Source: Flavobacterium swingsii (GTDB lineage: Bacteria > Bacteroidota > Bacteroidia > Flavobacteriales > Flavobacteriaceae). From it: a stretch of DNA of 64,000 bases. Positions 3,739 through 54,300 of this stretch are shown here, in pieces. Under the pieces are notes generated by a model, which saw only the letters and a program-made list of their open reading frames with translations, was not told the origin of the DNA and did no database searches. The position numbers and the translations under genes are program-made. Location: NCBI RefSeq assembly GCF_900111965.1, contig NZ_FOJT01000004.1, forward strand, positions 1-64,000. The letters are read 5' to 3'. Every line of letters begins with the position of its first letter. The stretch's first letter is position 1.

Positions 3739-3770
3739 TGCGGAATTTTAGATTGTAATATTAGAATTAC

Positions 3771-3798
3771 CAAAAATAATACCTTTGCGCTTATTCAA
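3771..3798 (-). promoter_or_regulatory. tex promoter
   Basis: On the minus strand TATTTTTG (3771-3778) fits the Bacteroidetes -7 consensus TAnnTTTG, with TTG (3796-3798) 17 nt upstream as the -33 element. It lies back to back with the divergent DUF1294 promoter. Confidence 0.7.
3780..3787 (+). promoter_or_regulatory. Promoter -7 element of the DUF1294 gene
   Basis: TACCTTTG matches TAnnTTTG exactly. A TTG lies at 3753-3755 (24-nt spacer). The G is followed by 18 nt and then the ATG at 3806, a spacing shared by several genes in the window. The element includes an upstream in-frame TTG at 3785, which argues that this TTG is not the start codon. Confidence 0.65.
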
Positions 3799-3805
3799 AA
3801 AAATT

Positions 3806-4069
3806 ATGACTGTTATTTTAATTTATTTTTTCATCATCAATATTATTGGATTTTTTCTAATTGGTTATGATAAAAAAATGGCTGTTGCGAATAAATATCG
3901 AATTGCTGAAAAAACATTGTTATTAATTGTCCTTCTTGGCGGAGTTATTGGTTCCGGATTGGCGATGCTTTTCTTTAGACATAAAACTTCTAAAATCTCT
4001 TATTTATTGAAGTTTTTTGGGGTCATTGTTCTTCAAATTTTATTTATTTTTTTATTAAAAACCACCTAG
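3806..4069 (+). CDS. DUF1294 small membrane protein
   Basis: From the ATG at 3806 this is an 87-residue protein with an N-terminal hydrophobic helix and further membrane segments. Between them lies the DUF1294 signature: G-Y-D-K near the start, R-I-A-E-K-T-L, G-G-V-I-G-S, and F-F-R-H-K-T-S-K. The role of the family is not established. An in-frame TTG at 3785 would add seven residues but sits inside the -7 promoter box, so it would be at or before the transcription start; I therefore chose the ATG. The gene appears monocistronic: its promoter is immediately upstream and a strong bidirectional terminator follows the stop. Confidence 0.85.
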   Translation: MTVILIYFFIINIIGFFLIGYDKKMAVANKYRIAEKTLLLIVLLGGVIGSGLAMLFFRHKTSKISYLLKFFGVIVLQILFIFLLKTT

Positions 4070-4084
4070 TTTGTTTCTAAAAAC

Positions 4085-4116
4085 AAAAAAGTTGCTTTTT
4101 ACAAAGCAACTTTTTT
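4085..4116. terminator. Bidirectional Rho-independent terminator
   Basis: A perfect 14-bp stem (4085-4098 with 4103-4116) around the tetraloop TTAC has six A on one flank and six T on the other. It separates the DUF1294 gene (+) from pyc (-). Confidence 0.9.
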
Positions 4117-4133
4117 ATAGGAATAAAAACTAT

Positions 4134-8936: not shown

Positions 8937-9365
8937 TTAACAACTAATTTTTCCCACTCTTGTAGCGTGTCTTCCGCCTTCAAAATTGGTGTTTAAGAAA
9001 ACATCTACCATTTCTATAGCTTGCTGAATCGAAGTATATCTTGCAGGAATACTTATAATATTGGCATCATTATGTTGGCGAGCCAAGGCGGCAATTTCTT
9101 TTATCCAACACAAAGCGGTACGAATTCCTTGGTGTTTGTTTGCTGACATGGCAATTCCGTTTCCGCTTCCACAGATGACAATACCAAAATCGGCTTTTCC
9201 TTCAGAAACATCGGTAGCAACTTTATGTCCAAAATCCGGATAATCAACACTATCAAAAGTATCTGTTCCGTGGTTTGTTACAGTATGTCCTTTTGATTCT
9301 AAAAATTGAACAATTGCTTTTTTGTAATCTGGTCCTGCGTGGTCATTTCCTATTGATATTTTCAT
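8937..9365 (-). CDS. rpiB: Ribose 5-phosphate isomerase B
   Basis: This 142-residue RpiB/LacAB-family enzyme interconverts ribose 5-phosphate and ribulose 5-phosphate in the pentose phosphate pathway. The N-terminus I-G-N-D-H-A-G holds the family Asp-His pair. The active-site cysteine lies in V-I-C-G-S-G-N-G (Cys65), where many family members have C-G-T-G-I-G. A conserved R-T-A-L-C-W segment and C-terminal G-G-R-H-A-T-R-V follow. The length is normal. It is the first gene of an operon with the small membrane protein and the CDF exporter, and an exact -7 box lies 21 nt upstream of its ATG. Confidence 0.95.
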   Translation of the reverse strand: MKISIGNDHAGPDYKKAIVQFLESKGHTVTNHGTDTFDSVDYPDFGHKVATDVSEGKADFGIVICGSGNGIAMSANKHQGIRTALCWIKEIAALARQHNDANIISIPARYTSIQQAIEMVDVFLNTNFEGGRHATRVGKISC

Positions 9366-9491: not shown

Positions 9492-10970
9492 ATGAAAATA
9501 AAATTACTTTTTATCGCATCATTCGTTTTTAGTTTCTTTACTACTTCTTTAAACGCTCAAACACAATTAGGTACTGATATTAATGGAGAATTGGCGGGAG
9601 ACGAATCAGGTTCTCGTGTTTCAATATCTCGCGATGGTACCACATTAGCTATCGGTGCTTATAAAAACGACGGAAATGGTAATAGCTCAGGACACGCAAG
9701 AATATATCGTTATAACGGAACTAATTGGATAAAATTAGGAGCTGATCTTGATGGGGAAGCGGCAGTAGATCAATTTGGCATTGGAATTAGTTTGTCTGAT
9801 GATGGAAATATTGTTGCAATTGGCTCTAATCAAAATAGTCAAAGCGCACCTGCATCTGGACATGTTAGAATATATTCATATAATGGAACTGAATGGGTAC
9901 AATTAGGTGCTGATATAGATGGTTTACCACACGCAGAAAATCTTTCTGTTCCAGCTCTTTCTGCAGACGGAACAATTGTAGCCATTGGCGCTTTAAACCA
10001 TGATGGGACAGGAGATGGAATAGGAAGGGTTGTTGTTTACAATTATGACGGAAGTCAATGGGTACAAATGGGAAATAATATTTATGGAGAAGCAAACGCA
10101 GATTTCTCTGGCGAATCAGTTTCTATAGCGGCAAATGGTTTAAGGTTAGCAATTGGAGCAACAGGTAATGATGATAATGGATCGAGTTCTGGACAAGTAA
10201 GAGTATATGACTATAACGGAACTAATTGGGTACAAACGGGAAACGATATTAACGGAGAAGGAATAAGTGATTTTTCTGGATATGTTTCTTTTTCTGGTGA
10301 CGGAACTACTTTAGCTGTTGGAGCTCGATTTAATAATGGTAATGGTGTTGATTCTGGTCAAGTTAAAGTATATCGTTACAATGGCACAAACTGGGTGCGA
10401 ATAGGAAATAATATTTATGGAGAAGCTGCAGGTGACGCTTTAGGAAGTAGCGTAAGTTTGTCTTTTGATGGGACAATATTAGCTGCTGGAGCTCCTCGAA
10501 ACAACGGAAATGGTACCCGTTCTGGAAGCACCCGAATCTATCAATACAATGGCACTAATTGGATTCAAAGAGGGATAGATATTAATGGTGAAGCTGCTGA
10601 TGATTATTCTGGATTTGGAGTGTCATTATCATCTAACGGAACAAGAGTAGCAATTGGAGCTTTATTAAATGATGGAAACGGTACAGATTCTGGTCATGTT
10701 CGTGTATATAATTTATCTGCAATTTTATCTTCTGATAGTTTTGTTTTAGAGAATTTTAAAATATTCCCTAATCCTACTTCAGAAAAAGTAATCATTACAT
10801 TACAGGAAAACCTACAACTAGAAAAAGTAACTATTTACAATACGTTAGGACAATTCATTAAAACCGAAAAAAACAATATTATTAATGTAACTGGTTTTGC
10901 AAAAGGAAGCTACTTTTTTGAAATAATTACCAATAAAGGAAAAGCAACTAAAACCATTGTAATTCAATAA
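9492..10970 (+). CDS. Secreted seven-repeat (propeller-like) protein with T9SS type A sorting domain
   Basis: This 492-residue protein starts with a signal peptide (hydrophobic run, then S-L-N-A-Q). Residues about 24-410 hold seven units of roughly 56 residues with a shared pattern: G-x-D-I-x-G-E, S-G-x-x-V-S-L-S-x-D-G-T, A-I-G-A, N-D-G-N-G, S-G-x-V-R-V-Y, and Y-N-G-T-N-W-V-Q. Exactly seven units fits a single closed seven-bladed beta-propeller, resembling FG-GAP/integrin-like blades. The last about 80 residues (I-F-P-N-P-T-S, then K-T-I-V-I-Q) are a type A T9SS sorting domain. The protein should be exported to the cell surface or medium; its ligand is unknown. It has its own promoter and terminator. 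Confidence 0.85.
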   Translation: MKIKLLFIASFVFSFFTTSLNAQTQLGTDINGELAGDESGSRVSISRDGTTLAIGAYKNDGNGNSSGHARIYRYNGTNWIKLGADLDGEAAVDQFGIGISLSDDGNIVAIGSNQNSQSAPASGHVRIYSYNGTEWVQLGADIDGLPHAENLSVPALSADGTIVAIGALNHDGTGDGIGRVVVYNYDGSQWVQMGNNIYGEANADFSGESVSIAANGLRLAIGATGNDDNGSSSGQVRVYDYNGTNWVQTGNDINGEGISDFSGYVSFSGDGTTLAVGARFNNGNGVDSGQVKVYRYNGTNWVRIGNNIYGEAAGDALGSSVSLSFDGTILAAGAPRNNGNGTRSGSTRIYQYNGTNWIQRGIDINGEAADDYSGFGVSLSSNGTRVAIGALLNDGNGTDSGHVRVYNLSAILSSDSFVLENFKIFPNPTSEKVIITLQENLQLEKVTIYNTLGQFIKTEKNNIINVTGFAKGSYFFEIITNKGKATKTIVIQ

Positions 10971-10990
10971 ATTGAAAAAATAATTTAAGG

Positions 10991-11019
10991 AAAAGCCGAG
11001 TAAATACTCGGCTTTTTTT
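10991..11019 (+). terminator. Rho-independent terminator
   Basis: A GC-containing hairpin (AAAAGCCGAGT, loop AAAT, ACTCGGCTTTT) followed by a T-run ends the 9492-10970 gene. Confidence 0.9.
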
Positions 11020-11040
11020 ATACAAAAAACATTAAAAATT

Positions 11041-11590
11041 TACATTGTTAACAACCAAACGCAATTCCTTGATATTCAGTTAACGCTAACTTAACAACTT
11101 TTGTTGACAACTTTAGAAAGAATTTTAGAAGTTTTTTTTGGAAGTTTAAATTTAAATTGTAATCCAAAACCGAGAATCAAAATCCTAATTTAGTTTGGTG
11201 TTTTTTTATGAAACTTATCATTATAAAAAAGTAGTTTATCAACAAAATTTCACGAAAATCTTATTTACAAAAAGTATAATTTTTTAATTATTAACAGTTG
11301 TTAATAGCTTTTTAAAATAAGTTTAAAATCAACATTTTAACTATTTAAAAACATGTTGATAAGTCATTATAAAATCATACAACTCAAATATGACAGCAAA
11401 TAAAATTAAAGTTATAGTAACTATTAACACGCTATCATAACCATTAATAAATTATTTAAATTTAAATTTTCTTTTTGTAATATTTAATAAATGTTGACAA
11501 CTTTAAAAAAATCTAAAAGTTATATTTTCTTTAAAACTGAATTCTAAATTCTGAAATCTAATATCTTATTCGTAAATTTCAACTTTATAA
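11041..11590. other. Gene-free AT-rich region with DnaA-box-like repeats; candidate oriC
   Basis: No plausible gene lies between the terminator at 11019 and rnr. The stretch is very AT-rich and holds TTATCAACA (11236-11244) and its reverse complement TGTTGATAA (11354-11362), each one base from the DnaA box TTATCCACA. A 14-base direct repeat, TGTTGACAACTTTA, occurs at 11102-11115 and 11492-11505. There is a palindrome TTGTTAACAA (11045-11054) and an inverted repeat TATTAAC/GTTAATA (11289-11306). A-T runs such as TTTAAATTTAAA near 11144-11159 and 11455-11469 could unwind. The rpiB operon runs leftward and the rnr block rightward. The oriC call is inference; skew analysis or DnaA binding would be needed. 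A possible rnr -7 box (TAAATTTC, one mismatch) is at 11573-11580. Confidence 0.45.
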
Positions 11591-11599
11591 AAATGAATT

Positions 11600-13777
11600 A
11601 TGAGTAAAATGCCAAAAAAGTTTGGAAAAAAAGAGAAAACGTTCTCTGAGAAAATATTAAAAATACTATCACAAAATGCCAATAAACCGTTTAATTATAA
11701 ACAAATATGTGCTGTTTTAGAATTAGATGATACTAAAAGTAGAAATGAAATTATTAAGGATTTAAAAATTCTAGCTTCACAAAAAGTTATTATTGAAACC
11801 GAACCAGGAAAATATCTTGTAAAAGCCATTTCACAAGACTATTACGAAGGAAAAATAGACATGACTTCTCGAAAAACAGCTTATTTTATCTGTCCTGATT
11901 TCGGAGAAGATGTATTTATTCCAACCAATAACTTAAATCACGCTTTAGATAAAGACATTGTAAAAGTTTACGTCTATAACCGAAGAAAAGGAAAACGTCC
12001 TGAAGGAGAAGTTATAGAAGTCGTAGAACGAGCCAAAACCGATTTTGTAGGTGTAATAGATATTCAGAAGAATTTTGCCTTTGTAAGCACTGCAAATCCT
12101 AAAATGTATACGGATATTTTTATTCCGTTAGCAAAAATTGGAGAAGCAGAACAAGGTGATGTCGTTTTAGTTCATATCGAAGATTGGCCTAAAAAAGCCG
12201 ATTCTCCTTTTGGATCAGTTATTAAAGTTTTAGGAAAACCAGGAGAACACGATACCGAAATTCATGCAATTTTAGCAGAATATGGTTTACCAGCAGAATT
12301 CCCTGTAGAAATAGAAGTTTTTGCCCAAAAAATAGATACTTCAATACAAGAAAGCGAAATTGCAAAACGTCGCGATATGCGAGATACATTAACTTTTACT
12401 ATCGATCCAAAAGATGCTAAAGATTTTGATGATGCACTTTCGTTCAAAAAATTAGAAAACGGAAACTACGAAATAGGAATTCACATTGCCGATGTTTCTC
12501 ATTATCTTCAAGAAGGAACAATTCTAGATGACGAAGCGTATCAACGTGCAACATCAGTTTATTTAGTTGATAGAGTTGTACCAATGTTGCCAGAAGTTTT
12601 ATCAAATTTTGCTTGTTCATTACGACCAAATGAAGAAAAATATACGTTTTCAGCTATTTTTGAAATTGATGAAAAAACAAACGTTGTTAACCAATGGTTT
12701 GGAAGAACAGTAATCAATTCGAACCAACGTTTTGCTTACGAAGAAGCGCAATATATCATAGAAACCAAAGACAATACTATTCCTATCGAAACTTCAATTA
12801 CAGGAAGTTCTTATGTAGTTTCGGATGAAATTGTAGCTGCAACATTAAAATTAGATGATTTAGCAAAAATTATGCGTCGCAAACGTATGAATGACGGAGC
12901 TATTTCTTTTGATAAAGTAGAAGTAAAATTCAATTTAAGCGAAGACGGAGAACCAGAAGGTGTCTTTTTTAAAGTTTCTAAAGATGCCAATCATCTTATC
13001 GAAGAATTCATGTTATTAGCCAACAGAAAAGTGGCTGAATATATTGGTAAACAAAAGAAAACCTTTATTTACAGAATTCACGACGAACCAAATGAAGATA
13101 AATTATTTGCAATGCAAGCTGTAATTGCAAAATTTGGTTATAAAATAGATTTTAGAGGTGGCGAAATCTCTAAATCTCTAAACGCTTTAATGGAAGAAGT
13201 AAACGGAAAAAAAGAGCAAAATCTTATTGATACTTTAGCGATTCGAACGATGAGTAAAGCTAAATATTCGACAGATAATATTGGTCATTACGGTTTAGCT
13301 TTCGATTATTATTCTCATTTTACTTCACCAATTCGTCGTTATCCAGACGTTATGGTTCATAGATTATTGCAATTTTATTTAGATGGAGGAAAATCTGTCG
13401 ACGAGGAAACGTACGAAACAAAATGCCAGCATACATCAAATATGGAAGGTTTAGCAACCAATGCCGAACGTGATTCTATAAAATATATGCAAGTAAAATA
13501 TATGCAAAATCATCAAGATCAGGAGTTTTTGGGTGTAATTTCTGGCGTGACTGAATGGGGAATTTATGTAGAAATCATCGAAAATAAATGCGAAGGAATG
13601 GTTCGTATTCGTGATATAAAAGACGATTATTACACTTTCGATGAAAAACAATATGCTTTGGTTGGCGAAATTTCTAAATCTTTATTACAATTAGGTGACG
13701 AAGTTTGGGTTAAAGTAAAAAATGCCGATTTAGTGAAGAAACAATTAGATTTTAATTTCTTAAGAAGAAAAGAGTAA
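11600..13777 (+). CDS. rnr: Ribonuclease R
   Basis: This 725-residue protein is a 3'-to-5' exoribonuclease of the RNase II/R family, which degrades structured RNA. It has an N-terminal winged-helix segment (about residues 15-70), two cold-shock-like OB domains (about 75-220), the RNB catalytic domain starting near 260 with T-I-D-P-K-D-A-K-D-F-D-D-A, whose aspartates bind the metals, and a C-terminal S1 domain (about 640-720). F-T-S-P-I-R-R-Y-P-D is the conserved RNB segment. An ATG at 11593 is out of frame; 11600 starts M-S-K-M-P-K-K. The DUF2807 gene follows after 6 nt and is probably co-transcribed. The gene borders the candidate replication origin. Confidence 0.96.
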   Translation: MSKMPKKFGKKEKTFSEKILKILSQNANKPFNYKQICAVLELDDTKSRNEIIKDLKILASQKVIIETEPGKYLVKAISQDYYEGKIDMTSRKTAYFICPDFGEDVFIPTNNLNHALDKDIVKVYVYNRRKGKRPEGEVIEVVERAKTDFVGVIDIQKNFAFVSTANPKMYTDIFIPLAKIGEAEQGDVVLVHIEDWPKKADSPFGSVIKVLGKPGEHDTEIHAILAEYGLPAEFPVEIEVFAQKIDTSIQESEIAKRRDMRDTLTFTIDPKDAKDFDDALSFKKLENGNYEIGIHIADVSHYLQEGTILDDEAYQRATSVYLVDRVVPMLPEVLSNFACSLRPNEEKYTFSAIFEIDEKTNVVNQWFGRTVINSNQRFAYEEAQYIIETKDNTIPIETSITGSSYVVSDEIVAATLKLDDLAKIMRRKRMNDGAISFDKVEVKFNLSEDGEPEGVFFKVSKDANHLIEEFMLLANRKVAEYIGKQKKTFIYRIHDEPNEDKLFAMQAVIAKFGYKIDFRGGEISKSLNALMEEVNGKKEQNLIDTLAIRTMSKAKYSTDNIGHYGLAFDYYSHFTSPIRRYPDVMVHRLLQFYLDGGKSVDEETYETKCQHTSNMEGLATNAERDSIKYMQVKYMQNHQDQEFLGVISGVTEWGIYVEIIENKCEGMVRIRDIKDDYYTFDEKQYALVGEISKSLLQLGDEVWVKVKNADLVKKQLDFNFLRRKE

Positions 13778-15273: not shown

Positions 15274-15951
15274 ATGAAAAAACTTTTACTTTTATTATTA
15301 TTTTCTTTACCCCTTTTTGCTCAAAACGATTCAATTCCAGTAGTAAAACCAAACTTATCATTAATTGGATTAAACAAACTAAATTTTGTTTATAAAGGGA
15401 TTTTAAATCCTTTTTTGGTTAATGTAAAAGATTCGAAACCTTTCAAAGTTAAAGGGGAATCGGTTTTACAAAACATTGATGGTACTTATAGTATCAAACC
15501 TAAAACATTAAAAGACACTAAAGTTCAGGTTGAAATACAAACATCCGATTCTACTAAAGTTATCGAAGAACACATTTTTAGAACAAAAGAATTACCCTAT
15601 GCCGCTTTACTTGTAAACAAAAAAGGTTGTATTAATGGAGAGTGTACGATTGAAATGTCAAGTAAAGAGCTTTTAAATGCTGAAATTACAGTTAAATTAA
15701 TCGACTATCTGTTAGATTATAACATCACGGTTACAAGCTTTAGAATTCATTTATCAAATTCAAATGGTGATTTCTTAGACAGTTTTGAAGTAAAAGGAGA
15801 CAAAATACCACAAGATATTTATGAAGCTATTGCCGCTAACGATAAAGCTACTTTAATTGTGATTCATAAGTTTACTTTCGCCTCCGATATTGGTTTATCC
15901 ATCATGAAAACTCCTGTGGTGAAGATTAGGAGAATATTGGAAACTAAGTAG
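15274..15951 (+). CDS. Secreted GldM C-terminal-domain-like protein, copy 1
   Basis: This 225-residue protein has a signal peptide (M-K-K-L-L then L-P-L-F-A-Q). The rest resembles only the two last periplasmic domains (D3-D4) of GldM/PorM, the T9SS motor shaft. Landmarks are L-N-K-L-N-F-V-Y-K-G-I-L-N-P-F in the place of GldM's V-V-Y-R-G-x-x-N-P-I, then E-E-H-I-F-R-T-K-E-L-P, a second beta domain (about 110-215) and K-T-P-V-V-K-I-R-R at the end. The N-terminal membrane helix and D1-D2 of GldM are absent. It contains a Cys pair (K-G-C-I-N-G-E-C) not seen in its neighbour. It is a paralogue of the next gene, 62 nt downstream. The family match is clear; a T9SS-related role is inference. Confidence 0.72.
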   Translation: MKKLLLLLLFSLPLFAQNDSIPVVKPNLSLIGLNKLNFVYKGILNPFLVNVKDSKPFKVKGESVLQNIDGTYSIKPKTLKDTKVQVEIQTSDSTKVIEEHIFRTKELPYAALLVNKKGCINGECTIEMSSKELLNAEITVKLIDYLLDYNITVTSFRIHLSNSNGDFLDSFEVKGDKIPQDIYEAIAANDKATLIVIHKFTFASDIGLSIMKTPVVKIRRILETK

Positions 15952-16013: not shown

Positions 16014-16670
16014 ATGAAAAAACTATTGTTTTTATTACTATTTCCTATTGTAGTATTTCCTCAAAATGACTCCATTTCTCCTGTTAAAAAAGGTAATATT
16101 TCTGTCGTTTCTGCTGATAGAATGAATGTAGTTTATCGAGGTATTCAAAATCCTATTTCTATTGCTGTAAATAATGCCAAATCTTATAAAATTACTGGCG
16201 ATGGTGTTTCACAAAATGAAGATGGAAAATATGTCTTACGTGCTGGAGCAGGAACGGAAACAAAAGTGATTGTTGAGATTGAAAAATTAGATGGTGCTAA
16301 AGTTACTGAAGAACATATTTTTAGGATAAAAGGTTTACCAAAACCGATTGGTACTTTAAATGATGAATATTCTACAAACGGTAGTGTTTTGAGATTTACC
16401 AAAGAAGAATTAAAAAAAGCCATAGTTAATTATAAAATGATTGATTTTTTATTTAATATTAATCCTGAAGTAACTCAATTCAATCTATCAATTAACAATA
16501 AATCAATTACTGTTGAAGGAAATAAATTTAATAATGAGGCTCTAAAAATTATTAATTCTGCGAAAAAGAGAGATTATTTAATAATTTCAAATATTAAAAC
16601 AAATTATATGAGTCCTGAGGCATGTTTTCCCCGTTCGCCAGCACCTATATCTTTTAAAGTTGTTAATTAA
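16014..16670 (+). CDS. Secreted GldM C-terminal-domain-like protein, copy 2
   Basis: This 218-residue protein carries a signal peptide (M-K-K-L-L then V-V-F-P-Q), followed by a near-textbook GldM D3 start: S-V-V-S-A-D-R-M-N-V-V-Y-R-G-I-Q-N-P-I-S-I. V-T-E-E-H-I-F-R-I-K-G-L-P-K-P-I-G-T-L marks the D3-D4 hinge, and D4 (about 118-218) ends S-P-A-P-I-S-F-K-V. As in copy 1, the membrane helix and D1-D2 are missing, so it is a stand-alone periplasmic form of the part of GldM that contacts the outer-membrane-side ring. It is closer to GldM than copy 1. It could be a binding partner or competitor of GldM, or serve another system; sequence alone does not decide. Confidence 0.78.
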   Translation: MKKLLFLLLFPIVVFPQNDSISPVKKGNISVVSADRMNVVYRGIQNPISIAVNNAKSYKITGDGVSQNEDGKYVLRAGAGTETKVIVEIEKLDGAKVTEEHIFRIKGLPKPIGTLNDEYSTNGSVLRFTKEELKKAIVNYKMIDFLFNINPEVTQFNLSINNKSITVEGNKFNNEALKIINSAKKRDYLIISNIKTNYMSPEACFPRSPAPISFKVVN

Positions 16671-16683
16671 ATCCCATAAAAAA

Positions 16684-16714
16684 ACCTCTAAATTTCTTTG
16701 AAGGTTTTAGAGGT
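16684..16714 (-). terminator. Hairpin with minus-strand T-run, probably ending tRNA-Cys transcription
   Basis: A 9-bp stem (ACCTCTAAA 16684-16692 with TTTAGAGGT 16706-16714) is preceded on the plus strand by a run of A, which reads as T on the minus strand. This fits termination of leftward transcription from tRNA-Cys or folB. Confidence 0.5.
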
Positions 16715-16718
16715 ATCT

Positions 16719-16749
16719 CCCGCGATAGCCATCGGGACGGATTCGAACC
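16719..16749 (-). pseudogene. tRNA T-arm fragment next to a GATAGCC/ATCGGG palindrome
   Basis: On the minus strand GGTTCGAATCC (16739-16749) is a perfect T-arm core, yet the bases upstream of it (ATATAT) show no anticodon or D-arm. It runs directly into an imperfect palindrome, CCCGCGATAGCCATCGGG (16719-16736, plus strand). This looks like the 3' remnant of a tRNA gene fused to a short palindromic repeat. It is 70 nt downstream of the intact tRNA-Cys, on the same strand. The call is tentative. Confidence 0.4.
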
Positions 16750-16818
16750 ATATATTTAATTAATTTTTTCTAAAAATTTTCCACAAAAAAAAGAGACACA
16801 TTTCTGTATCTCTTCTTG

Positions 16819-16889
16819 AGGCATCGTCCGGATTCGAACCGGAGTAGGAGCTTTTGCAGAGCCCAGCCTAGCCGCTCGGCCACGACGCC
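16819..16889 (-). tRNA. tRNA-Cys (anticodon GCA)
   Basis: The minus strand folds as a complete 71-nt cloverleaf. The acceptor is GGCGTCG with CGATGCC (one G-T pair), the D-arm contains GGCCGAGCGGCTAGGC, the anticodon stem GGGCT/AGCTC encloses loop CTGCAAA with anticodon GCA, and the T-arm is CTCCGGTTCGAATCCGGAC. The discriminator is T and no CCA is encoded (CAA follows). A promoter with -33 and -7 elements lies just upstream. Confidence 0.95.
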
Positions 16890-16906
16890 CTTTGTTTAGC
16901 GGATTG

Positions 16907-16936
16907 CAAATATAAGAAACTATTAATAATTAACAA
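16907..16936 (-). promoter_or_regulatory. tRNA-Cys promoter
   Basis: On the minus strand TATATTTG (16907-16914) is an exact -7 box with TTG (16934-16936) 19 nt upstream, the best-fitting promoter in the window. Its -33 element lies inside the palindromic repeats between tRNA-Cys and folB. Confidence 0.75.
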
Positions 16937-16976
16937 TTGATAATTACAAATTTTTAAAAATTATCAATTGATAATT
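16928..16976. repeat. AATTATCAATTG palindromic repeats downstream of folB
   Basis: AATTATCAATTGATAATT (16959-16976) is a perfect 18-base palindrome. CAATTGATAATT (16934-16945) and AATTATCAATTG (16959-16970) form a 12-bp hairpin with a 13-nt loop. It may end folB transcription. Confidence 0.7.
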
Positions 16977-16994
16977 ATCATTTATCAATTAATT

Positions 16995-17354
16995 CTAGTT
17001 TCTATATTCTTCCATTTCAATCGTAACCGCTTCAACATCACCACCAATAGGCGGATTTAATTTAGAAACAGCCACAATAATTCTAGAAACAGAAGCTATT
17101 TCTGAAAAGATTCTTGTTATAATTCTGTTGGCTACATGTTCTAATAAATGCGAACGAATCGCCATTTCTTCGACTACAATTCGGTTCAAAAGTACATAAT
17201 CGACCGTATCTTTTAAGTTATCTGACAAAGAAGAACGGCGTAAATCGGTTTTTATCTCTAAATCAACTTTGTAATCCGAACCAATTTTTCCCTCTTCGAT
17301 CAAACAACCATGATAAGAAAAAGTACGTATGTTTTTTAGTTTTATAATGCCCAT
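16995..17354 (-). CDS. folB: Dihydroneopterin aldolase
   Basis: From the ATG at 17354 this is a 119-residue FolB, which cleaves 7,8-dihydroneopterin to 6-hydroxymethyl-dihydropterin in folate synthesis. The family start I-I-K-L-K-N-I-R-T-F-S-Y-H-G-C is seen, with the Y-H-G motif, then D-T-V-D-Y-V-L-L-N and L-L-E-H-V-A-N-R-I containing the conserved Leu-Glu-His, and K-L-N-P-P-I-G-G-D near the end with the catalytic-site lysine. An in-frame ATG at 17396 would add 14 polar residues (N-K-Q-I-H-K-S-T-N) not typical of FolB; I prefer the shorter form. It is divergent from glnS. Confidence 0.92.
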   Translation of the reverse strand: MGIIKLKNIRTFSYHGCLIEEGKIGSDYKVDLEIKTDLRRSSLSDNLKDTVDYVLLNRIVVEEMAIRSHLLEHVANRIITRIFSEIASVSRIIVAVSKLNPPIGGDVEAVTIEMEEYRN

Positions 17355-17445
17355 TTTGAGTTTATTTGTGGATTTGTGAATTTGTTTATTCGACAATATT
17401 GCTTAAATACTCGATTTTTAGTCATCATTTATCAAATAACCAAAC

Positions 17446-19203: not shown

Positions 19204-19228
19204 AAAAGCCTTGTTAATCAAGGCTTTT
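19204..19228 (+). terminator. glnS terminator
   Basis: A 10-bp stem (AAAAGCCTTG 19204-19213 with CAAGGCTTTT 19219-19228) and loop TTAAT follow glnS by 20 nt. Confidence 0.85.
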
Positions 19229-19261
19229 ATTTTAATTTTCAACAATTTTCAAATATATAAA

Positions 19262-21637
19262 ATGAAAAAAATATTACTTATCAGTTTGCTTTTAACACGT
19301 ATTACACTTTTTGCACAAGACGATTGGAGGCCTATTGGTCCAGATGATTATAATCAGCCATCTCTTAGTTATTCATATTATACCAAAATTGCAATCGATA
19401 ATAATAATACTCCTTATGTAGTATGCAGTGATCAAAATAATGCTAAAAAAATATGTGTTAGAAAATATAATGGAACTAATTGGGAATATGTAGGTTCTGC
19501 TGGATTCTCAACAGGTCAGGCCGATTATACTTCCATAGTAATTGATAACAATAATATTCCCTACGTTGCTTACAAAGATGTTGCCAATAGTAATAAAATT
19601 ACGGTGCAAAAATTTAATGGAACATTTTGGGAAGTAGTCGGAACGCTTGGTTTTTCAACAGATCAAGCAGATTATACAGCTATTGCAATTGACAATAATA
19701 ATGTGCCTTTTGTAACATACAAAGACGCAAGTAACGTTAATAAAATAACCGTGCAGAAATTTAATGGTGCTGCATGGGAATTTGTAGGAACAGCTGGATT
19801 TTCAGTTGGTGGAGCTGACTATACCTCTATTGTTTTTGATAATACTAACACTCCTCTTGTTTCCTATAAAGATGCTTCAAATAGCAATAAAGTTACTGTT
19901 CAGAAATTTAATGGTGCAGCTTGGCAAGTAGTTGGCCTTTCAGGATTTTCAGCCGGTGGAGCAGATTACATAGCTATAGCAACAGACGTTAATAATTTAC
20001 CGTATGTTGTTTATAAAGATATCGCAAACGGAAATAAGGCTACTGTGCAAAAATTTGATGGTATAAACTGGCAGGTAGTTGGAACTGTGGGCATATCAGC
20101 AGGTACAGCCGATTATACATCGATAGCGATCAATAGTAGTAACCAGCCTTATATAGTTTATAAAGATGTGCTGAATAATGATAAAACCACAATTAGAAAA
20201 TTTAACGGAACAGCCTGGCAACCTGTAGGTACGGGTGTAATATCTGTTGAAATGGCAGATTATACCTCCATTGCAATAGATAACAACAATGTTCCCTATG
20301 TGGTCTACAGTAAAACGTATTATGGAGGAAAAGCAAGAGTACAGAAATTCAACGGAACATCTTGGGAAATGGTTGGTAATTATGGTTTTGCTGAAACTTC
20401 AGATGCAATTTATACTAATTTTTTAGCAATTGATAATAACAATGTTCCGTATTTTATATACAGGGAGCTTACTAATGGTAATAAAGCAACAGTAAAAAAG
20501 TATAATGGAACAACCTGGCAAACAGTTGGAACAGCTGGTTTTTCTAACGGACAGGCTGATTTTGTTTCTATCGATATAGACAATAATAATATTCCATATG
20601 TAGCCTACAGAGACAACCCGCTATCCTATAAAATAACCGTTAAAAAATTTAATGGTACTAGTTGGGTAACTGTTGGATCACAAGGATTTTCTACTGGGTT
20701 TGCAGGGTATATTTCATTAACAATTGATAATAATAACGTACCTTATGTTGCTTATAAAGATGATTCATTTGGAGGAAAAATTGTTGTTAAAAAATACAAT
20801 GGCACAAGTTGGGTATTGGTTGGAACTTCAGGCTTTTCTGCGGGATATGCGAGCTATATTACATTGAAGTTTGATTCTAATAATATTCCTTATGTTGCCT
20901 ATGACGATTCAAGTGTTGGAAATAAATCATTTGTTCAAAAATTTAATGGAACTAATTGGGAAGTTGTAGGAGTGTCAGGTATATCTGCCGGATATACCAA
21001 TAATACATGCCTTGCTTTTAACAGCAGTAACATCCCCTTTATTGCTTATACTGACTGTACCGTAAGCTGTAAAGCAACTGTTCAAAAATTTAACGGAACA
21101 GCTTGGGAAGTTGTTGGATTACAAGGATTTTCTTCCGGTTATGCCGAATTTATTACCTTAAAAATAAATGGAAATAATATTCCTTATGTTTCTTACAGTG
21201 ATTTAAATAATGGCAACCATGTATTTGTACAAAAATTTAATGGTACAGCATGGGAAATGGTTGGAACAAGTGTTTCATCAGGGCATTCGAGAGGTGTTTC
21301 TATGGTTTTTAACAGTAATAATATTCCTTATGTTGCCTATGAATCTACTGGTGCTTACGCTAAATATTTTGGTATTGAAAACGCTCTAAGCACAAAGGAA
21401 AACACCTATTCTCTAAACAAAACATCAATTTACCCAAACCCAGTTAAAAACAGTTTTTCAATTTCTGGTAATGAAGCTGTAAACGAAATTGATATTTTCG
21501 ATTTAGTTGGGAAAAAAGTATTACATCAGCAAAATCCAAACAAAGAAATTAATATTCAATTTTTACCGAACGGAATTTACGTTGCAAAAATAAAAACCGA
21601 AAAAGGCATTACTTCTTTGAAGTTAATTAAAGAATAA
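19262..21637 (+). CDS. T9SS-secreted 14-repeat protein, tandem paralogue 1
   Basis: From ATG 19262 the protein has 791 residues: a signal peptide (ending L-F-A-Q), the start D-D-W-R-P-I-G-P-D-D, then fourteen units of about 47 residues. Each carries I-D-N-N-N-x-P-Y-V-x-Y-K-D, K-x-T-V-Q-K-F-N-G-T-x-W, and V-G-T-A-G-F-S-x-G. Fourteen is twice seven, so two seven-bladed beta-propellers are a natural model; this is inference. The last about 75 residues are a type A sorting domain (S-I-Y-P-N-P-V-K-N-S-F, ending S-L-K-L-I-K-E). The annotated-looking upstream start at 19211 lies inside the glnS terminator and is rejected. The next gene is a paralogue. The function is unknown. Confidence 0.85.
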   Translation: MKKILLISLLLTRITLFAQDDWRPIGPDDYNQPSLSYSYYTKIAIDNNNTPYVVCSDQNNAKKICVRKYNGTNWEYVGSAGFSTGQADYTSIVIDNNNIPYVAYKDVANSNKITVQKFNGTFWEVVGTLGFSTDQADYTAIAIDNNNVPFVTYKDASNVNKITVQKFNGAAWEFVGTAGFSVGGADYTSIVFDNTNTPLVSYKDASNSNKVTVQKFNGAAWQVVGLSGFSAGGADYIAIATDVNNLPYVVYKDIANGNKATVQKFDGINWQVVGTVGISAGTADYTSIAINSSNQPYIVYKDVLNNDKTTIRKFNGTAWQPVGTGVISVEMADYTSIAIDNNNVPYVVYSKTYYGGKARVQKFNGTSWEMVGNYGFAETSDAIYTNFLAIDNNNVPYFIYRELTNGNKATVKKYNGTTWQTVGTAGFSNGQADFVSIDIDNNNIPYVAYRDNPLSYKITVKKFNGTSWVTVGSQGFSTGFAGYISLTIDNNNVPYVAYKDDSFGGKIVVKKYNGTSWVLVGTSGFSAGYASYITLKFDSNNIPYVAYDDSSVGNKSFVQKFNGTNWEVVGVSGISAGYTNNTCLAFNSSNIPFIAYTDCTVSCKATVQKFNGTAWEVVGLQGFSSGYAEFITLKINGNNIPYVSYSDLNNGNHVFVQKFNGTAWEMVGTSVSSGHSRGVSMVFNSNNIPYVAYESTGAYAKYFGIENALSTKENTYSLNKTSIYPNPVKNSFSISGNEAVNEIDIFDLVGKKVLHQQNPNKEINIQFLPNGIYVAKIKTEKGITSLKLIKE

Positions 21638-21902: not shown

Positions 21903-21938
21903 TATAAACATTTTTAAATAACTTTAATATTTTTGTCA

Positions 21939-31088: not shown

Positions 31089-31105
31089 TTTTGTAAATTT
31101 TGATG

Positions 31106-31113
31106 CAAAGATA
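31106..31113 (-). promoter_or_regulatory. gltX promoter -7 element
   Basis: On the minus strand TATCTTTG fits TAnnTTTG and is 17 nt from the gltX ATG. Confidence 0.6.
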
Positions 31114-31197
31114 AAGTTTAAAAATCTGTTTAATATATTTTTAACTCATTAGAATTTTAAAATTACTACTTTTATAGGTTAAAAAGATTGCTTTATT

Positions 31198-34554: not shown

Positions 34555-34966
34555 TTTTAATTACGAAATAGATTTCGAAATACAAGAAGAAACCATTTAT
34601 ACCAATTGGATTTCTAGTGTTATAGTTTCAGAAAACAAATCCGAAGGCGAGATAAATTATATCTTTTGCGACGATGATTACTTGGTTGAAATTAACCAAC
34701 AATATCTAAATCACGACACACTAACGGATATTATAAGTTTCGATTATTCTTTAGGAAATGAAATACACGGAGATATTTATATCTCTATCGAAAGAGTCCG
34801 TGAGAACGCAGAAGAGTTTAAGGTCCCTTTCGAAGAAGAATTAAAACGCGTTATGATTCATGGTGTTTTACACTACTGCGGTTACAAGGATAAATCTGAA
34901 TCTGACGAGTTGTTAATGCGCTCTAAGGAAGACGAAAAAATAAAATTGTTTCACGTGAAACAATAA
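34547..34966 (+). CDS. ybeY: Endoribonuclease YbeY
   Basis: From ATG 34547 this is a 139-residue YbeY, the metal-dependent endoribonuclease of 16S rRNA maturation and ribosome quality control. The signature appears as R-V-M-I-H-G-V-L-H-Y-C-G-Y-K-D-K: the first two metal-binding histidines are present, but the third position of the usual H-G-x-L-H-x-x-G-Y-D-H is lysine-aspartate, a variant I recall from other Bacteroidetes. D-I-I-S-F-D-Y is also conserved. The ATG overlaps the DUF4175 stop by 8 nt, so translation is coupled. The last codons (L-F-H-V-K-Q) are encoded by a perfect parS site. Confidence 0.93.
   Translation: MISFNYEIDFEIQEETIYTNWISSVIVSENKSEGEINYIFCDDDYLVEINQQYLNHDTLTDIISFDYSLGNEIHGDIYISIERVRENAEEFKVPFEEELKRVMIHGVLHYCGYKDKSESDELLMRSKEDEKIKLFHVKQ
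34947..34962. promoter_or_regulatory. parS site 1 (inside ybeY 3' end)
   Basis: TGTTTCACGTGAAACA matches the 16-bp parS consensus TGTTNCACGTGAAACA at every defined position, and the palindrome extends to 18 bp (34946-34963). ParB/Spo0J is the expected ligand. Confidence 0.88.
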
Positions 34967-34989
34967 CGCAAAATCTAAATCACGAATTA

Positions 34990-35005
34990 TGTTTCACGTG
35001 AAACA
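34990..35005. promoter_or_regulatory. parS site 2
   Basis: TGTTTCACGTGAAACA is a second perfect consensus match, 43 bp from site 1 (start to start), in the ybeY-mnmG gap. Confidence 0.88.
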
Positions 35006-35034
35006 ATTTTTTAATTCATGATTTTTAATTGAAA

Positions 35035-35050
35035 AGTTCCACGTGGAACA
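35035..35050. promoter_or_regulatory. parS-like site 3
   Basis: AGTTCCACGTGGAACA has two differences from the consensus but is a perfect 14-bp palindrome (GTTCCACGTGGAAC). It lies 45 bp after site 2. Confidence 0.65.
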
Positions 35051-35117
35051 AAGCATAATTTGAATTACAAAAACGATTAGAAGACGTAATTTGTAATTCG
35101 CAATTCACAATCAAAAA

Positions 35118-36989
35118 ATGTTTTTAGAAGAATATGATGTTATAGTTGTTGGTGCTGGTCACGCAGGTTGCGAGGCTGCTGCGGCATCAGCAAATCTAGG
35201 TTGCTCCACCCTATTAGTTACAATGAGCTTGCAAAACATTGCGCAAATGTCTTGCAATCCTGCTATGGGCGGAATTGCTAAGGGACAAATAGTTCGTGAG
35301 ATTGATGCGCTTGGTGGTTATTCAGGAATTGTTTCAGATAAAACCGCTATTCAATTCAAGATGCTCAACAAGTCGAAAGGACCTGCGATGTGGTCGCCAA
35401 GAGTTCAAAGTGACCGTATGCGTTTTTCTGAAGAATGGCGATTGATGCTTGAAGGAACTCCTAATCTTGATTTTTATCAAGAAATGGTTTCGGGAATGGT
35501 TATCGAAAACAATAAAGTTTTGGGTATTAAAACTTCTTTGGGATTGACTATTCGTGCCAAATCTGTTGTGCTTACTAATGGAACTTTTCTTAATGGATTA
35601 ATACATATTGGCGACAAACAATTTGGTGGTGGCCGTGCTGGAGAAAGTGCCGCTTACGGAATTACCGAAGATTTGGTTAAAGCTGGTTTCGAATCTGGAA
35701 GGATGAAAACAGGAACACCACCTCGAGTAGATGGTCGTTCGTTAGATTATTCTAAGATGAATGTAGAAGCAGGAGATATAAACCCATCTAAATTTTCGTA
35801 TTCAGATATAACAAAACCATTGGCGCACCAGAGAGATTGTCACATGACTTACACCTCTCTTTTGGTTCATGATATATTGCGTGAAGGTTTCGAACGTTCG
35901 CCAATGTTCAACGGTCGAATTAAAAGTTTAGGCCCAAGATATTGCCCTTCTATCGAAGATAAAATAAATCGTTTTGCAGATAAAGACCGTCATCAATTGT
36001 TTGTTGAACCGGAAGGTTGGAATACTTGTGAGGTTTATGTAAACGGATTCTCAACTTCTTTACCAGAGGATATTCAATTTAAAGCATTGCGTTCGGTGGT
36101 TGGTTTCGAGAAAGTAAAATTCTTCAGAGCTGGTTATGCTATCGAATATGACTACTTCCCTCCTACGCAACTCAAACATACTTTAGAAACCAAATTAGTC
36201 GAAGGTTTGTATTTTGCAGGGCAAATAAATGGAACAACTGGTTACGAAGAAGCGGCTTCTCAAGGATTGATGGCAGGAATAAATGCTGCACTCAAGGTGA
36301 AAGAACAAGAGCCTTTAATCTTAAAACGTGACGAAGCTTATATCGGAGTTTTAATAGATGATTTGATTACCAAAGGAACTGAAGAACCTTACAGAATGTT
36401 TACTTCTCGTGCCGAATTCAGAACTTTATTGCGTCAGGATAATGCAGATTTTAGATTGACTCCAATGTCGAATAAAATTGGTTTGGCATCTGATGCGCGT
36501 TTGAAACGAATGGAGCACAAACTGAATGAATCAGAAAAAATGGTGGCTTTCTTTAGAGAAACTAGCATTACTCCTGCTGAAGCAAATCCGGTTTTAATTG
36601 CTAAAGAAACTGCCGAAGTAAATCAGACAGATAAGATTTTTAAAATACTTTCTCGTCCGCAAATAGAGTTAGCAGATGTTTTAAAATTTAATAATGTCGC
36701 AGAATATGTTGCTAATAGTGATGTAGATCAAGAAATTCTTGAACAAGCAGAAATTCAAGTAAAATATTCTGGTTATATCGATAAAGAAAGAGCCAATGCC
36801 GAAAAGCAAACACGTTTGGAAGATTTAAAAATCCCAGAAAACTTCGATTACCATCAAATCAAATCGATGTCTATAGAAGCAAAACAAAAATTATCTAAAA
36901 TTAGACCTGTTACCATTTCGCAAGCGTCAAGAATATCTGGAGTTTCGCCAAGTGATATTTCGGTATTGTTGGTTTTCCTTGGAAGATAA
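35118..36989 (+). CDS. mnmG: tRNA uridine-5-carboxymethylaminomethyl modification enzyme MnmG
   Basis: This 623-residue flavoprotein, with MnmE, modifies the wobble uridine of several tRNAs. The FAD-binding start V-V-G-A-G-H-A-G-C-E-A-A (residues 10-21) is followed by S-C-N-P-A-M-G-G-I-A-K-G, and G-T-F-L-N-G and F-A-G-Q-I-N-G-T-T-G-Y-E-E-A-A-S-Q-G are conserved. The C-terminal helical domain ends I-S-G-V-S-P-S-D-I-S-V-L-L. The length is normal. In many bacteria mnmG (gidA) sits beside parAB near oriC. Here no parAB is in the window, but parS sites lie on both sides of the gene. Confidence 0.97.
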   Translation: MFLEEYDVIVVGAGHAGCEAAAASANLGCSTLLVTMSLQNIAQMSCNPAMGGIAKGQIVREIDALGGYSGIVSDKTAIQFKMLNKSKGPAMWSPRVQSDRMRFSEEWRLMLEGTPNLDFYQEMVSGMVIENNKVLGIKTSLGLTIRAKSVVLTNGTFLNGLIHIGDKQFGGGRAGESAAYGITEDLVKAGFESGRMKTGTPPRVDGRSLDYSKMNVEAGDINPSKFSYSDITKPLAHQRDCHMTYTSLLVHDILREGFERSPMFNGRIKSLGPRYCPSIEDKINRFADKDRHQLFVEPEGWNTCEVYVNGFSTSLPEDIQFKALRSVVGFEKVKFFRAGYAIEYDYFPPTQLKHTLETKLVEGLYFAGQINGTTGYEEAASQGLMAGINAALKVKEQEPLILKRDEAYIGVLIDDLITKGTEEPYRMFTSRAEFRTLLRQDNADFRLTPMSNKIGLASDARLKRMEHKLNESEKMVAFFRETSITPAEANPVLIAKETAEVNQTDKIFKILSRPQIELADVLKFNNVAEYVANSDVDQEILEQAEIQVKYSGYIDKERANAEKQTRLEDLKIPENFDYHQIKSMSIEAKQKLSKIRPVTISQASRISGVSPSDISVLLVFLGR

Positions 36990-36995
36990 ATCAAT

Positions 36996-37011
36996 TGTTC
37001 CACGTGAAACT
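36996..37011. promoter_or_regulatory. parS-like site 4
   Basis: TGTTCCACGTGAAACT differs from the consensus only in the last base. It lies 7 bp after the mnmG stop. Confidence 0.75.
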
Positions 37012-51314: not shown

Positions 51315-54300
51315 ATGAGAATAAGAAACTACATATTATTGACTTTAGTGTTCATACTAAACACAATAAGCGCAAATGCCCAACTAGCAAGACCTTTTGC
51401 TGTTAGAAACAATCAGAGTTTAAGAGGTGATATGCATCTCATAGGAAATAATATTCTTAATTTTCCCGCAGGACCAGGAAACAGCACTCCCTATAATTTA
51501 ACAGGAGCAGCAGCAACAGCTAATGATGCCATCAATATGAGTTATATTGATGTCGATTCTGACGCTTCAACCTTTAGTTCAAGTAGCGCAACACTTACCA
51601 TACCTGCCGCTAGTGCATCGTGTTATAGAATAAGATATGCAGCATTGTATTGGTCTGCAACATATATAGATAACAATAGAGCACCTATTTCTAATGTGAA
51701 ACTAAAATTACCAACGAGTGCCACTTACGTGGATATTGCCGCTGATAATTTAATATATGATGAGTTTGCAGGTAATTTATTAGGGTCATCATGTAAGCCT
51801 TATGCTGCTTATAAAGACATAACGGCTATGGTCGTTGCACAAGCCAATCCACAAGGGGTTTATACCGTTGCGAATGTAACTGCGACGACAGGAGATGGTT
51901 CATGTCCTGGAGGTTATGCCGCAGGTTGGAGTATTTATATTGTATATGAAGACCCTAATTTGCCAGGTAGGTATTTTACCACTTTTGATGGATTTGCAGG
52001 AATAAACGGAACAAACACACAAGATATTGATATTGTTGGATTTACAACAATTCCCATAGGCCCAGTTAGAGCAAAAACAGCTTTTTCAGCATTAGAAGGA
52101 GATAATAAAATAACTGGAGACAGATTGCGAATTCGTGGTGTATCATCAGTTCCTCTCACCACCTATTGGTCGATAATAACACCAGCCAGAGTTACTGGAA
52201 GTGCTACAGTAACAAATGCATCAGATAACTTTTTTAATAGTACCATTACCGACCCAGTGGGTATAATGCCAGCAAGAACGCCAAACAGTACAAATACTTT
52301 GGGTTATGATGCTGGGGTTGCGATTATTAACAACGGAGGAAATCTTGTAATTAACAACGGAGAAACTGCCGCTAAATTACGAATGGAAACCGATGGTGAC
52401 CAATATTATATGTTTTTTAGTGCTTTTGCAATCGATATTATCGAGCCAAATATTGTACTTACTAAAACAGTACAAAATTTAGCCGGTGTAGATATTGGTG
52501 GAGCAGATGTAAATTTATGTCAAGATTTAGTTTATACTATTGGTTTTCAAAATATAGGAAATGATGACGCAACTAACTTTACAATTAGAGATGTACTTCC
52601 AATAAATGTAACTTTTAATCCAGCAGATTTAGCACTACCTGGCGCTTTACCTCCTGGTGTAACTTTTGTTTATACAGCAGCAACAAGAACAATCGTTTTT
52701 AGCATACCGCCAGGCTTAGTTAATGTAAACGATCCAAGGTTAGAAATAAAACTAAGAGTAAGAGTGGTTTGTACTTGTGATCAGCTAGATGACGCTTGTT
52801 CTAATGTGGTGACAAATCAAGCTTTTGCAAGTTATCAAGGTGTTATCAATACAGCACAAATAACAGACGATCCTAGTTTATCCTCTTTCTCATCATGTAA
52901 TTTAAGTCCACCAAGTCCAACCAACTTCTTAGTAGGACTAGATGATTGTAATTTTACTACAGATGTTGTTCTTTGTGGAAACAATCCAATTACATTAACT
53001 GCAGCCAATGGTTATACAAGTTATGTGTGGAGTGGCCCAGGAACAATTACTCCAGTAGCGGGAACAAATAATCAATCAGTAATAGTAAACCAAATAGGGA
53101 CATATACTGTAAATAATATTATTAGTCTTACGCCTTGTAAATCGATTGTACAAACATTTAATGTTACAGATTTTGGCGCAGGAGCACTAACAAATCCAGT
53201 TATTCCTTATGCAGATTCTGTTGTAATTTGTCCAAATGACGGTGTGCAATTACCACTCATATTTTTGTGTGGTGCCGGAGATCATACACTCATTCAAACG
53301 AATATTTCGGGAGCAACATCTATTACTTGGGAACAACTAAATCTAGGAGGAGCTTGTGTTGCAGTAGTAAATCCTAATTGTGCAAACACTAGCCCTGCTT
53401 GTAATGGAAATTGGATTAATCCAGTAACAGGACCAAATTTTGATGCTACAACAGCAGGAGAATATAGAGTAACTGTAAATTTTAACGGATGTTCTCGTAT
53501 ATTTTATTTTAATGTTTTTCAAAACACATTAAATCCAATAGCTACACCAAGAGATGTTGTTTGTACTACTCAAGGACAAATAACAATTACAGGTGTTCCA
53601 GCAGGATATGAATACCAATTAAATTGTGCAGGAGCATGGCAAGCAGGTAATGTTTTCACAGGTCTTTCAGCGGGAATTTATTCGGTATGTATTCGTCAAA
53701 TAGGAATAGTAGGTGGTTGTGTTTTTACAGTGTCAAATATTCCTATTGTAAACAGAGTGTTTTCAGTTTCGGCAATTATTACACAACCTATTTGTAGTAC
53801 AGATAAAGGAACTATAAACTTGGCAGCAAATGGTGTTTTACCACAATATACTTTTACTATAAACCAAATGCCAAGTAATGCACTGGTTAGCACTTTTGGC
53901 CCTACAAATAGCAGTAGTACTGTATTTAATAATCTAAATCCAGGGAATTATACTTATACTGTATCAACACAAGATGGTTGTACACAAACCACACCTTTTA
54001 CAATTAATCAGCCACCATTGCTAACAGCTATGGTTACCTTAACAAAACCTTTAGCATGTACTGATGGAGAAATTACAGTTACTCCAACAGGCGGAACACC
54101 TCAATATAGTTATATTGTTACAGGAGCAGTTAGTGTTACTCAAGTAAGTCCAGGAAGCACAGTAATTGCAGCACCAGTTGCAGGAACATATAATATTCAA
54201 GTAGTAGATGATAATAACTGTTTTGTAAATGTATCAATAACAGTAGCGGTATCACCACCACCAGTATTTAATATTGTAAAAACAGATGTTGTTTGTTCAA

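Follow-up and report, generated by a model that had tools for sequence, protein, structure and literature searches.

Replication origins beside rpiB or mnmG are already known in print, as predictions, for other Flavobacteriaceae. For Tenacibaculum, the accessible text of PMC9864904 places the Ori-Finder prediction of oriC directly beside rpiB in six of the seven circular chromosomes and near it in the seventh. For Mariniflexile and Algorimicrobium oriC was predicted beside mnmG and stated to be consistent with the GC skew (PMC11278836 and PMC12843772, accessible text), with one figure legend in the accessible part of PMC11278836 labelling mnmG as ter, contradicting its own text. In Bacteroidetes oriC is commonly located far from dnaA (PMC4755523, accessible text). 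Ori-Finder 2022 uses the default box TTATCCACA and lineage motifs are selectable (PMC10225481); the main texts of Ori-Finder 2022 and of DoriC 10 (PMC6323995) contain no word starting with Bacteroid or Flavobacter. The base-contacting residues of E. coli DnaA are 399, 423, 432-435 and 438-439 (PMC5043019, accessible text).

The stretch analyzed here, called the window throughout, comprises 64,000 nucleotides at the beginning of contig C7 of a draft Flavobacterium genome (2.57 Mb, 10 contigs). Its Rnr is 95% identical to that of F. psychrophilum DSM 3660, the top of 80 loci kept, and 71-90% identical to those of the remaining Flavobacterium-titled loci; the window's Flavobacterium is near F. 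psychrophilum. The initial annotation had proposed a candidate chromosomal origin, which is supported by the skew switch and the box conservation in relatives, and the block 11032-11514 is very probably the replication origin (oriC) of the Flavobacterium chromosome. The object is ordinary in kind, i.e., a chromosomal oriC; uncommon are its private DnaA box and its apparent relocation between two fixed sites.

Results

The gap upstream of rnr

The gap reaches from the stop of the ORF 9492-10970 to the rnr start at 11600 (10971-11599, 629 bases, GC 0.199), in agreement with the gene-free AT-rich stretch described initially. The terminator postulated at its left border was found as a 14-pair hairpin with T's (Table 1), which is missing from the output of the pattern scanner. 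The leftward genes are rpiB, a cation-efflux gene, pyruvate carboxylase and tex, and rnr runs rightward. The claimed divergence of a leftward rpiB operon and rnr holds, but the operon does not border the gap directly: the plus-strand FG-GAP/T9SS gene intervenes, and the distance from the rpiB start to rnr is therefore 2235 bases, more than in most relatives. In most Flavobacterium loci examined a minus-strand ORF of 77-80 amino acids separates the origin from rnr; the one scanned is weakly DUF2007-like, below the Pfam cut-off, and no such ORF was found in the window (11500-11600) or in F. psychrophilum (L037).

Elsewhere in the window, tandem paralogous T9SS-sorted proteins are encoded at 19211-21637 and 21933-24320 (56% identity across 797 aligned positions), two adjacent short proteins (15274-15951 and 16014-16670) match the C-terminal part of GldM/PorM only, below the curated cut-off, and a SprB-repeat protein of 3312 amino acids with a CHU_C T9SS signal is encoded at 51315-61253.

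Table 1. Features of the origin region and its surroundings (positions in the window; relatives are the 64 dereplicated modules where a fraction of 64 is given; box matches refer to TTATNAACA).
Feature	Position	Strand	Evidence
rpiB, left neighbor in most relatives	8937..9365	-	LacAB_rpiB 1e-56; positions in relatives
FG-GAP, T9SS-sorted gene between rpiB and origin	9492..10970	+	
T-tailed hairpin, terminator of FG-GAP gene, bordering module on the left	10988..11019 (approximate)	+	RNA fold -18.2 kcal/mol, z -7.2
Conserved module (very probably oriC), ~480 bases	about 11032..11514		long DNA matches, 66-77% identity, upstream of rnr in relatives; nhmmer 65/80 titled loci
DnaA-box-like site TTGTTAACA; reads on + strand too, from 11045	11046..11054	-	at most one mismatch 60/64, 11 exact
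DnaA-box-like site TTGTCAACA; first copy of 14-base repeat	11102..11110	-	64/64, 51 exact
DnaA-box-like site TTATCAACA	11236..11244	+	62/64, 27 exact
Variant site TTATTTACA	11261..11269	+	at most one mismatch 55/64, 0 exact
DnaA-box-like site TTATTAACA, weakly conserved	11288..11296	+	37/64, 5 exact
DnaA-box-like site CTATTAACA	11299..11307	-	53/64, 18 exact
DnaA-box-like site TTATCAACA	11354..11362	-	63/64, 47 exact
Right arm, 109 bases, nearly ungapped among relatives; basis of model R1	11404..11512	+	alignment of 38/64 dereplicated modules
DnaA-box-like site CTATTAACA, edge of melting region	11421..11429	+	56/64, 8 exact
Conserved element CTATCATAACCA, consensus CTATAATAACCA	11432..11443	+	10/12 columns invariant or >=90% in 38 sequences
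Probable DNA unwinding element	11443..11492		least stable 50-mer of the gap; ranks third in the 64-kb window
DnaA-box-like site TTGTCAACA; second copy of 14-base repeat	11492..11500	-	at most one mismatch 64/64, 3 exact
Pre-rnr stretch, probably rnr promoter region, conserved separately from module	11514..11599	+	blastn and DNA matches upstream of rnr
rnr (RNase R), right neighbor	11600..13777	+	RNB domain 2.2e-109
Site B (gltX|DUF4175-like gene), empty in window, occupied in some relatives	31089..31197		gap of 109 bases, free of sites up to one mismatch
Four parS sites flanking mnmG	34947..37011		sole places with at most one mismatch to the pattern in the window's genome

DnaA-box-like sites

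Both boxes named in the initial annotation are present exactly, TTATCAACA at 11236 and TGTTGATAA at 11354, as is the 14-base direct repeat TGTTGACAACTTTA at 11102 and 11492. The conservation of the two boxes, which had been suggested as a check, was seen in 62/64 and 63/64 dereplicated relatives, respectively, with at most one mismatch. Of 2000 shuffles of the gap, 134 contain a 14-mer repeat, and the repeat was for this reason rejected as evidence by itself; both of its copies are box sites with at most one mismatch in 64/64 relatives.

The gap contains three exact copies of TTATNAACA, a number reached in 0/2000 shuffles. The pattern TTDTNAACA has seven sites in the gap (shuffle mean 0.88, maximum 4), counted as six places because the palindromic place 11045/11046 was scored on both strands, and this group is the densest of the 64 kb (500-base steps). 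Altogether, the module has nine DnaA-box-like sites, the last two of which flank the conserved element CTATNATAACCA and a 50-base melting region. Eleven positions are occupied, in at least 12 of the 64 modules each, by a site with one mismatch or none; the window has nine and is devoid of the two conserved places near 11215 (42/64) and near 11479 (19/64).

The gapped 9-mer that is repeated within most modules is TTATNAACA, with at least two copies in 55/64 and a sum of 173 copies in the 64 modules vs. 12.2 expected from shuffles. TTATNCACA is found once in the 64 modules vs. 3.0 times in shuffles, i.e., it is rarer than expected. This strict E. coli consensus has no copy in the window gap, and a DnaA-box cluster is therefore present only in a lineage-specific form. 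Canonical DnaA boxes were rejected, as the window shows no enrichment of TTWTNCACA (9 sites vs. 12.3 expected). Judged by their letters, the putative boxes of the module are of the TTATNAACA type and not of the TTATNCACA type. Genome-wide, exact TTATNAACA occurs 280 times vs. 472 times for the reversed control pattern, and further loose TTATNAACA groups are found elsewhere in the genome among the first 100 places listed.

Right arm and melting region

In the 38/64 modules aligned, the right arm shows the order box TATTAACA, two bases, CTATAATAACCA, AT-rich run and TGTTGACAACTTT. The least stable 40-mer is centered at 11440-11479 in 44/64 relatives. By analogy, the succession of boxes, edge box, melting region and closing box matches the construction of known oriCs. 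DnaA-trios of the B. subtilis type are not enriched by our own simplified score (mean 6.12 vs. 7.34 in scrambled controls), which exceeds the control in only 13/64 modules. By this score the arrangement taken to define a basal unwinding system (BUS), three or more consecutive trios within 16 bases of a box, is not supported, and the element CTATAATAACCA accommodates, by eye, at most one DnaA-trio.

Conservation among relatives

As DNA query, the gap gave some match in 38 of 60 genomes searched, and 28 of 36 same-genus genomes were matched at E <=1.3e-10. By nhmmer, 89 of 105 upstream regions of rnr were matched, with the window itself counted and some regions shortened by contig ends; 84 long upstream regions were aligned, 64 of which were left after dereplication. 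The whole gap was matched by nhmmer in 65/80 titled loci compared with 0, 1, 0, 0 and 1 of 80 for five control gaps or gap parts, which are less sensitive because they are short (59-290 bases). The control gap 16671-17375 was matched in 76/80 loci and is no fair control, because folB is inside. The stretch 11515-11599 (1/80 as control) had been read as unconserved; this was dropped, as blastn limited to the 250 bases before rnr yielded matches in 52/80 titled loci. The gap 3739-4133, between the tex and pyruvate carboxylase genes, is conserved as well (38/80 loci).

R1, a sequence-only model of the right arm, has a match at E<=0.01 in 139 of 150 genus genomes, 128 of them at E<=4.1e-9 with one strong match each; 11/150 show weak matches only and 11/150 have no match at E<=0.01. 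The rpiB-rnr gap of Maribacter, Allomuricauda and Flagellimonas contains 3-5 TTATNAACA-type sites vs. 0.4-0.8 expected. The window gap as nhmmer query matched none of the rpiB-rnr gaps of these three genera; R1 matched that of two Maribacter (1.5e-5, 1.8e-5) and gave no match in Allomuricauda or Flagellimonas, where the evidence for an origin is the box count. Outside the family, divergent adjacency of rpiB and rnr was not found in the 20 genomes examined from other families of the order.

Strand composition

As raw GC skew (20-kb stretches) is confounded by gene direction, it was replaced by third-position skew split by gene strand. Twenty stretches of 20 kb were sampled from each of three closed relatives with the module at site A, i.e., rpiB|rnr (G010, G036 and G061); the two sides are delimited by the far sign change, which was read off the data and is near the opposite side of each chromosome. 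Over these 60 stretches, the coding-corrected GC3 skew is negative in 32/34 left of the locus (G010 11/12, G036 11/11, G061 10/11) and positive in 25/26 right of it (8/8, 9/9 and 8/9, respectively). The local cumulative GC-skew minimum (80-kb spans) is at 1,040,057 in G010, inside the block 1,040,016-1,040,516, at 871,230 in G036, within 0.2 kb of the block 870,570-871,053 (R1 to 871,054), and at 989,292 in G061, within 0.2 kb of the box group 989,348-989,880.

The GC-skew check proposed with the initial annotation thus came out in favor of an origin in three closed relatives, with the minimum in the block or at most 0.2 kb away, but not in the window's own draft genome, in which the skew is weak and partly contrary. 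There, the corrected skew is slightly negative over 11.6-31.6 kb (r -0.083), mixed to 180 kb and positive in 5/5 stretches beyond 210 kb; the raw skew in the window has its minimum at 9269, within rpiB, left of the plus-strand FG-GAP gene. In the fourth closed genome, G022, the corrected skew is noisy and the raw minimum (974.5 kb, 160-kb span) is 25 kb from its boxes; the cumulative skew has a low plateau at the boxes and is far higher at rnr.

parS sites and dnaA

The parS sites, described initially as about 24 kb away, were located as four sites 23-26 kb from the module; they were identified by a pattern that we take to be that of parS. In the stretches sampled, the distance between clusters of this pattern and the block is 15-21 kb in G010, G036 and G061 and ~0.5 kb in G022. 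At 1.51 Mb G036 has one more match with 0 mismatches, and elsewhere in the stretches sampled there are single matches with two mismatches.

That the window holds no dnaA and the origin lies apart from it was claimed correctly: the genome's one dnaA match is on contig C6 (G000:C6, 173707-174192, L001), an arrangement common in Bacteroidetes, as stated above. The genes next to dnaA are presumably a low-molecular-weight phosphatase-like gene on one side and a thioesterase-like gene on the other. In G010 and G036 dnaA is at position 1, 1.04 Mb and 0.87 Mb from the locus, and the origin is not dnaA-linked. In the gap preceding dnaA, exact TTATNAACA is absent and there are two one-mismatch sites only, so that dnaA autoregulation is unsupported; boxes of the dnaA promoter were discarded as independent motif evidence, with no exact site.

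Two sites for one module

The module occupies either site A or site B (gltX/ybeY-mnmG), with at least two apparent moves on the Rnr tree. In nine genomes, eight with a weak R1 match (G018, G020, G022, G066, G083, G101, G109, G148) and G097 (4.1e-9), the match is separated from rnr by 9-405 kb or is found on a different contig, and it falls within a group of boxes adjoining gltX and/or ybeY-mnmG. In G101, a closed genome like G083 and G148, sites A and B are 45 kb apart. In G022, rpiB and rnr are still divergent and only 180 bases apart; its seven boxes are at 999.2-999.8 kb, directly before ybeY-mnmG and 72-75 kb from rnr, no group within 160 kb is denser, and the skew minimum is also far from rnr. 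In Myroides indicus the boxes adjoin gltX. In the Rnr tree F. enshiense falls among site-A Flavobacterium. Its R1 match is strong (3e-15) and located between gltX and the DUF4175-like gene, and the 1000 bases preceding its rnr contain no box; its site-B module shows at most ~70% identity over its length to site-A modules. In L107-L110 (Myroides and two uncultured) rnr is present with no box near it, and the boxes of L107 and L108 are at site B.

For 110 rows, the site labels are A in 93, B in 12 and U (neither A nor B assigned) in 5 (G027, G132, L109, L110, L063), with the B labels assigned by hand from match positions. L060, L082, L102, L054 and L305 (inserted genes or short contigs) were relabelled A, and L098 and L108 were relabelled B. 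The Rnr tree needs three site changes in a quick and two in a careful version, the bootstrap of which had not settled.

The DnaA protein

Aligned to the E. coli domain (1J1V), the DnaA of the window's genome has alanine at P423 and at T435. Both P423A and T435A are found in 10/10 intact Flavobacterium DnaAs examined, from which the broken DnaA of G060 was excluded. A435 is also present in 15/19 DnaA loci from other families of the order and is therefore not private to Flavobacterium. The exchanges P423A and T435A may be responsible for the change at box position 6. In G060, the genome holding L102 (CP096136.1, titled MAG, complete genome), dnaA is seemingly split by a frame change and stops (C1:794913-796339; L124, L125), possibly a sequencing error.

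Discussion

The reading of the block as oriC is based on the strand switch in three relatives, the box array, the melting region, the conservation, the single strong copy per genome and the proximity of parS, as well as on the fact that the module keeps its boxes when located elsewhere. The features of an oriC that were found are a box cluster, an AT-rich melted element, one conserved copy per chromosome and parS in the region, together with a skew switch in the three closed site-A relatives that is coarse in the site-B genome G022. From this architecture, binding of DnaA, unwinding and initiation would be expected at the module. DnaA, encoded elsewhere in the genome, would bind the TTATNAACA-type boxes on either strand (those at 11046-11362 plus the one at 11421), and its assembly would proceed toward the box at 11421. 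It might then open the AT-rich 11443-11492 from the 11421 side, with the box at 11492 as closing boundary, and helicase loading at the opened stretch would send two forks outward. The ParABS sites beside mnmG, 23-26 kb off, would separate the copied origins.

We favor, with some reservation, the broader view that the Flavobacteriaceae oriC is a self-contained module of ~420-490 bases with a private box, TTATNAACA (position 6 C to A), recognised by a DnaA whose recognition helix is re-tuned (P423A, T435A). In this view the whole module changed place repeatedly, always between the same two divergent-promoter gaps, rpiB|rnr and gltX|ybeY-mnmG, at a distance of ~20 kb from each other, while the gene string is otherwise conserved and parS is fixed. 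A rather unlikely but serious alternative accepts the origin and explains the A/B pattern without movement, by an ancestor with two copies and later loss of either of them. Differential loss would yield just such repeated use of the same two sites; however, among the matches listed no genome has two strong modules, second R1 matches having E >=7e-4. The low identity of the F. enshiense site-B module to the site-A modules, despite the nesting of the species among site-A genomes, decides for neither history.

That the block is no origin and instead a conserved regulatory region of the divergent rpiB and rnr, comprising promoters, operators or a leader RNA, is very improbable. Its location in a divergent promoter gap would fit, promoter-like matches are commoner than in shuffles (15 vs. 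5.6) and the pre-rnr stretch is conserved as well (52/80 loci), but the module departs from rpiB and rnr in site-B genomes and coincides with the skew switch in three site-A chromosomes. Moreover, the five Rfam matches are each below the gathering score, and in most Flavobacterium a small ORF lies between the module and the pre-rnr stretch. A true origin at the parS-mnmG site in this genome, with the rpiB-rnr block as a relic or secondary origin, is hardly credible: published predictions beside mnmG in Mariniflexile and Algorimicrobium (as far as their accessible text goes), the parS sites and the site-B modules of some relatives point there, but site B of the window is 109 bases long and box-free, and G010, G036 and G061 have their skew minima at site A though mnmG/parS are 15-21 kb away.

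If the module is the mobile oriC that we favor, several consequences arise. Origin-finding software defaulting to the E. coli box could misplace or miss the origins of a lineage nearly without such a box, and both the rotation of genomes and the growth estimates from copy number would then start at a wrong point. A private box combined with specific DnaA substitutions would offer a direct test of the co-evolution of initiator and origin, and an origin shifting its place while the surrounding genes and parS stay would be a natural experiment on what fixes origin position. No report of the TTATNAACA box or of a two-site relocation was recognised among the papers listed, a coverage outside of which most subscription journals and supplements lie, and this is weak evidence of novelty.

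Compared with the described systems, the Tenacibaculum origin has the family and the neighboring gene rpiB in common with the origin in the window; the prediction served to orient chromosomes, and the accessible text names no box motif, module anatomy or movement (PMC9864904). The mnmG site of Mariniflexile and Algorimicrobium corresponds, by its published description, to site B, and the accessible parts of these papers do not connect it with the rpiB-rnr site as one module that changed place. The E. coli oriC with its TTATCCACA boxes shares with the module a 9-mer array in two orientations by an AT-rich melting region, apart from dnaA, and gidA (mnmG) is the neighbor of both E. coli oriC and site B; box position 6, however, is A in Flavobacterium and C in E. 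coli. As in the B. subtilis-type basal unwinding system (PMC8287927), a box directly flanks the conserved element and melting region in the window, whereas trio runs are not enriched in window-type modules. Epsilonproteobacteria likewise have their own box consensus and altered DnaA helix-5 residues (PMC5043019, accessible text), but their hallmark is T at box position 5, while the Flavobacterium change is at position 6 and accompanied by P423A and T435A. The cyanobacterial box TTTTCCACA (PMC6323995) is a lineage consensus as well, with T at position 3 as its hallmark.
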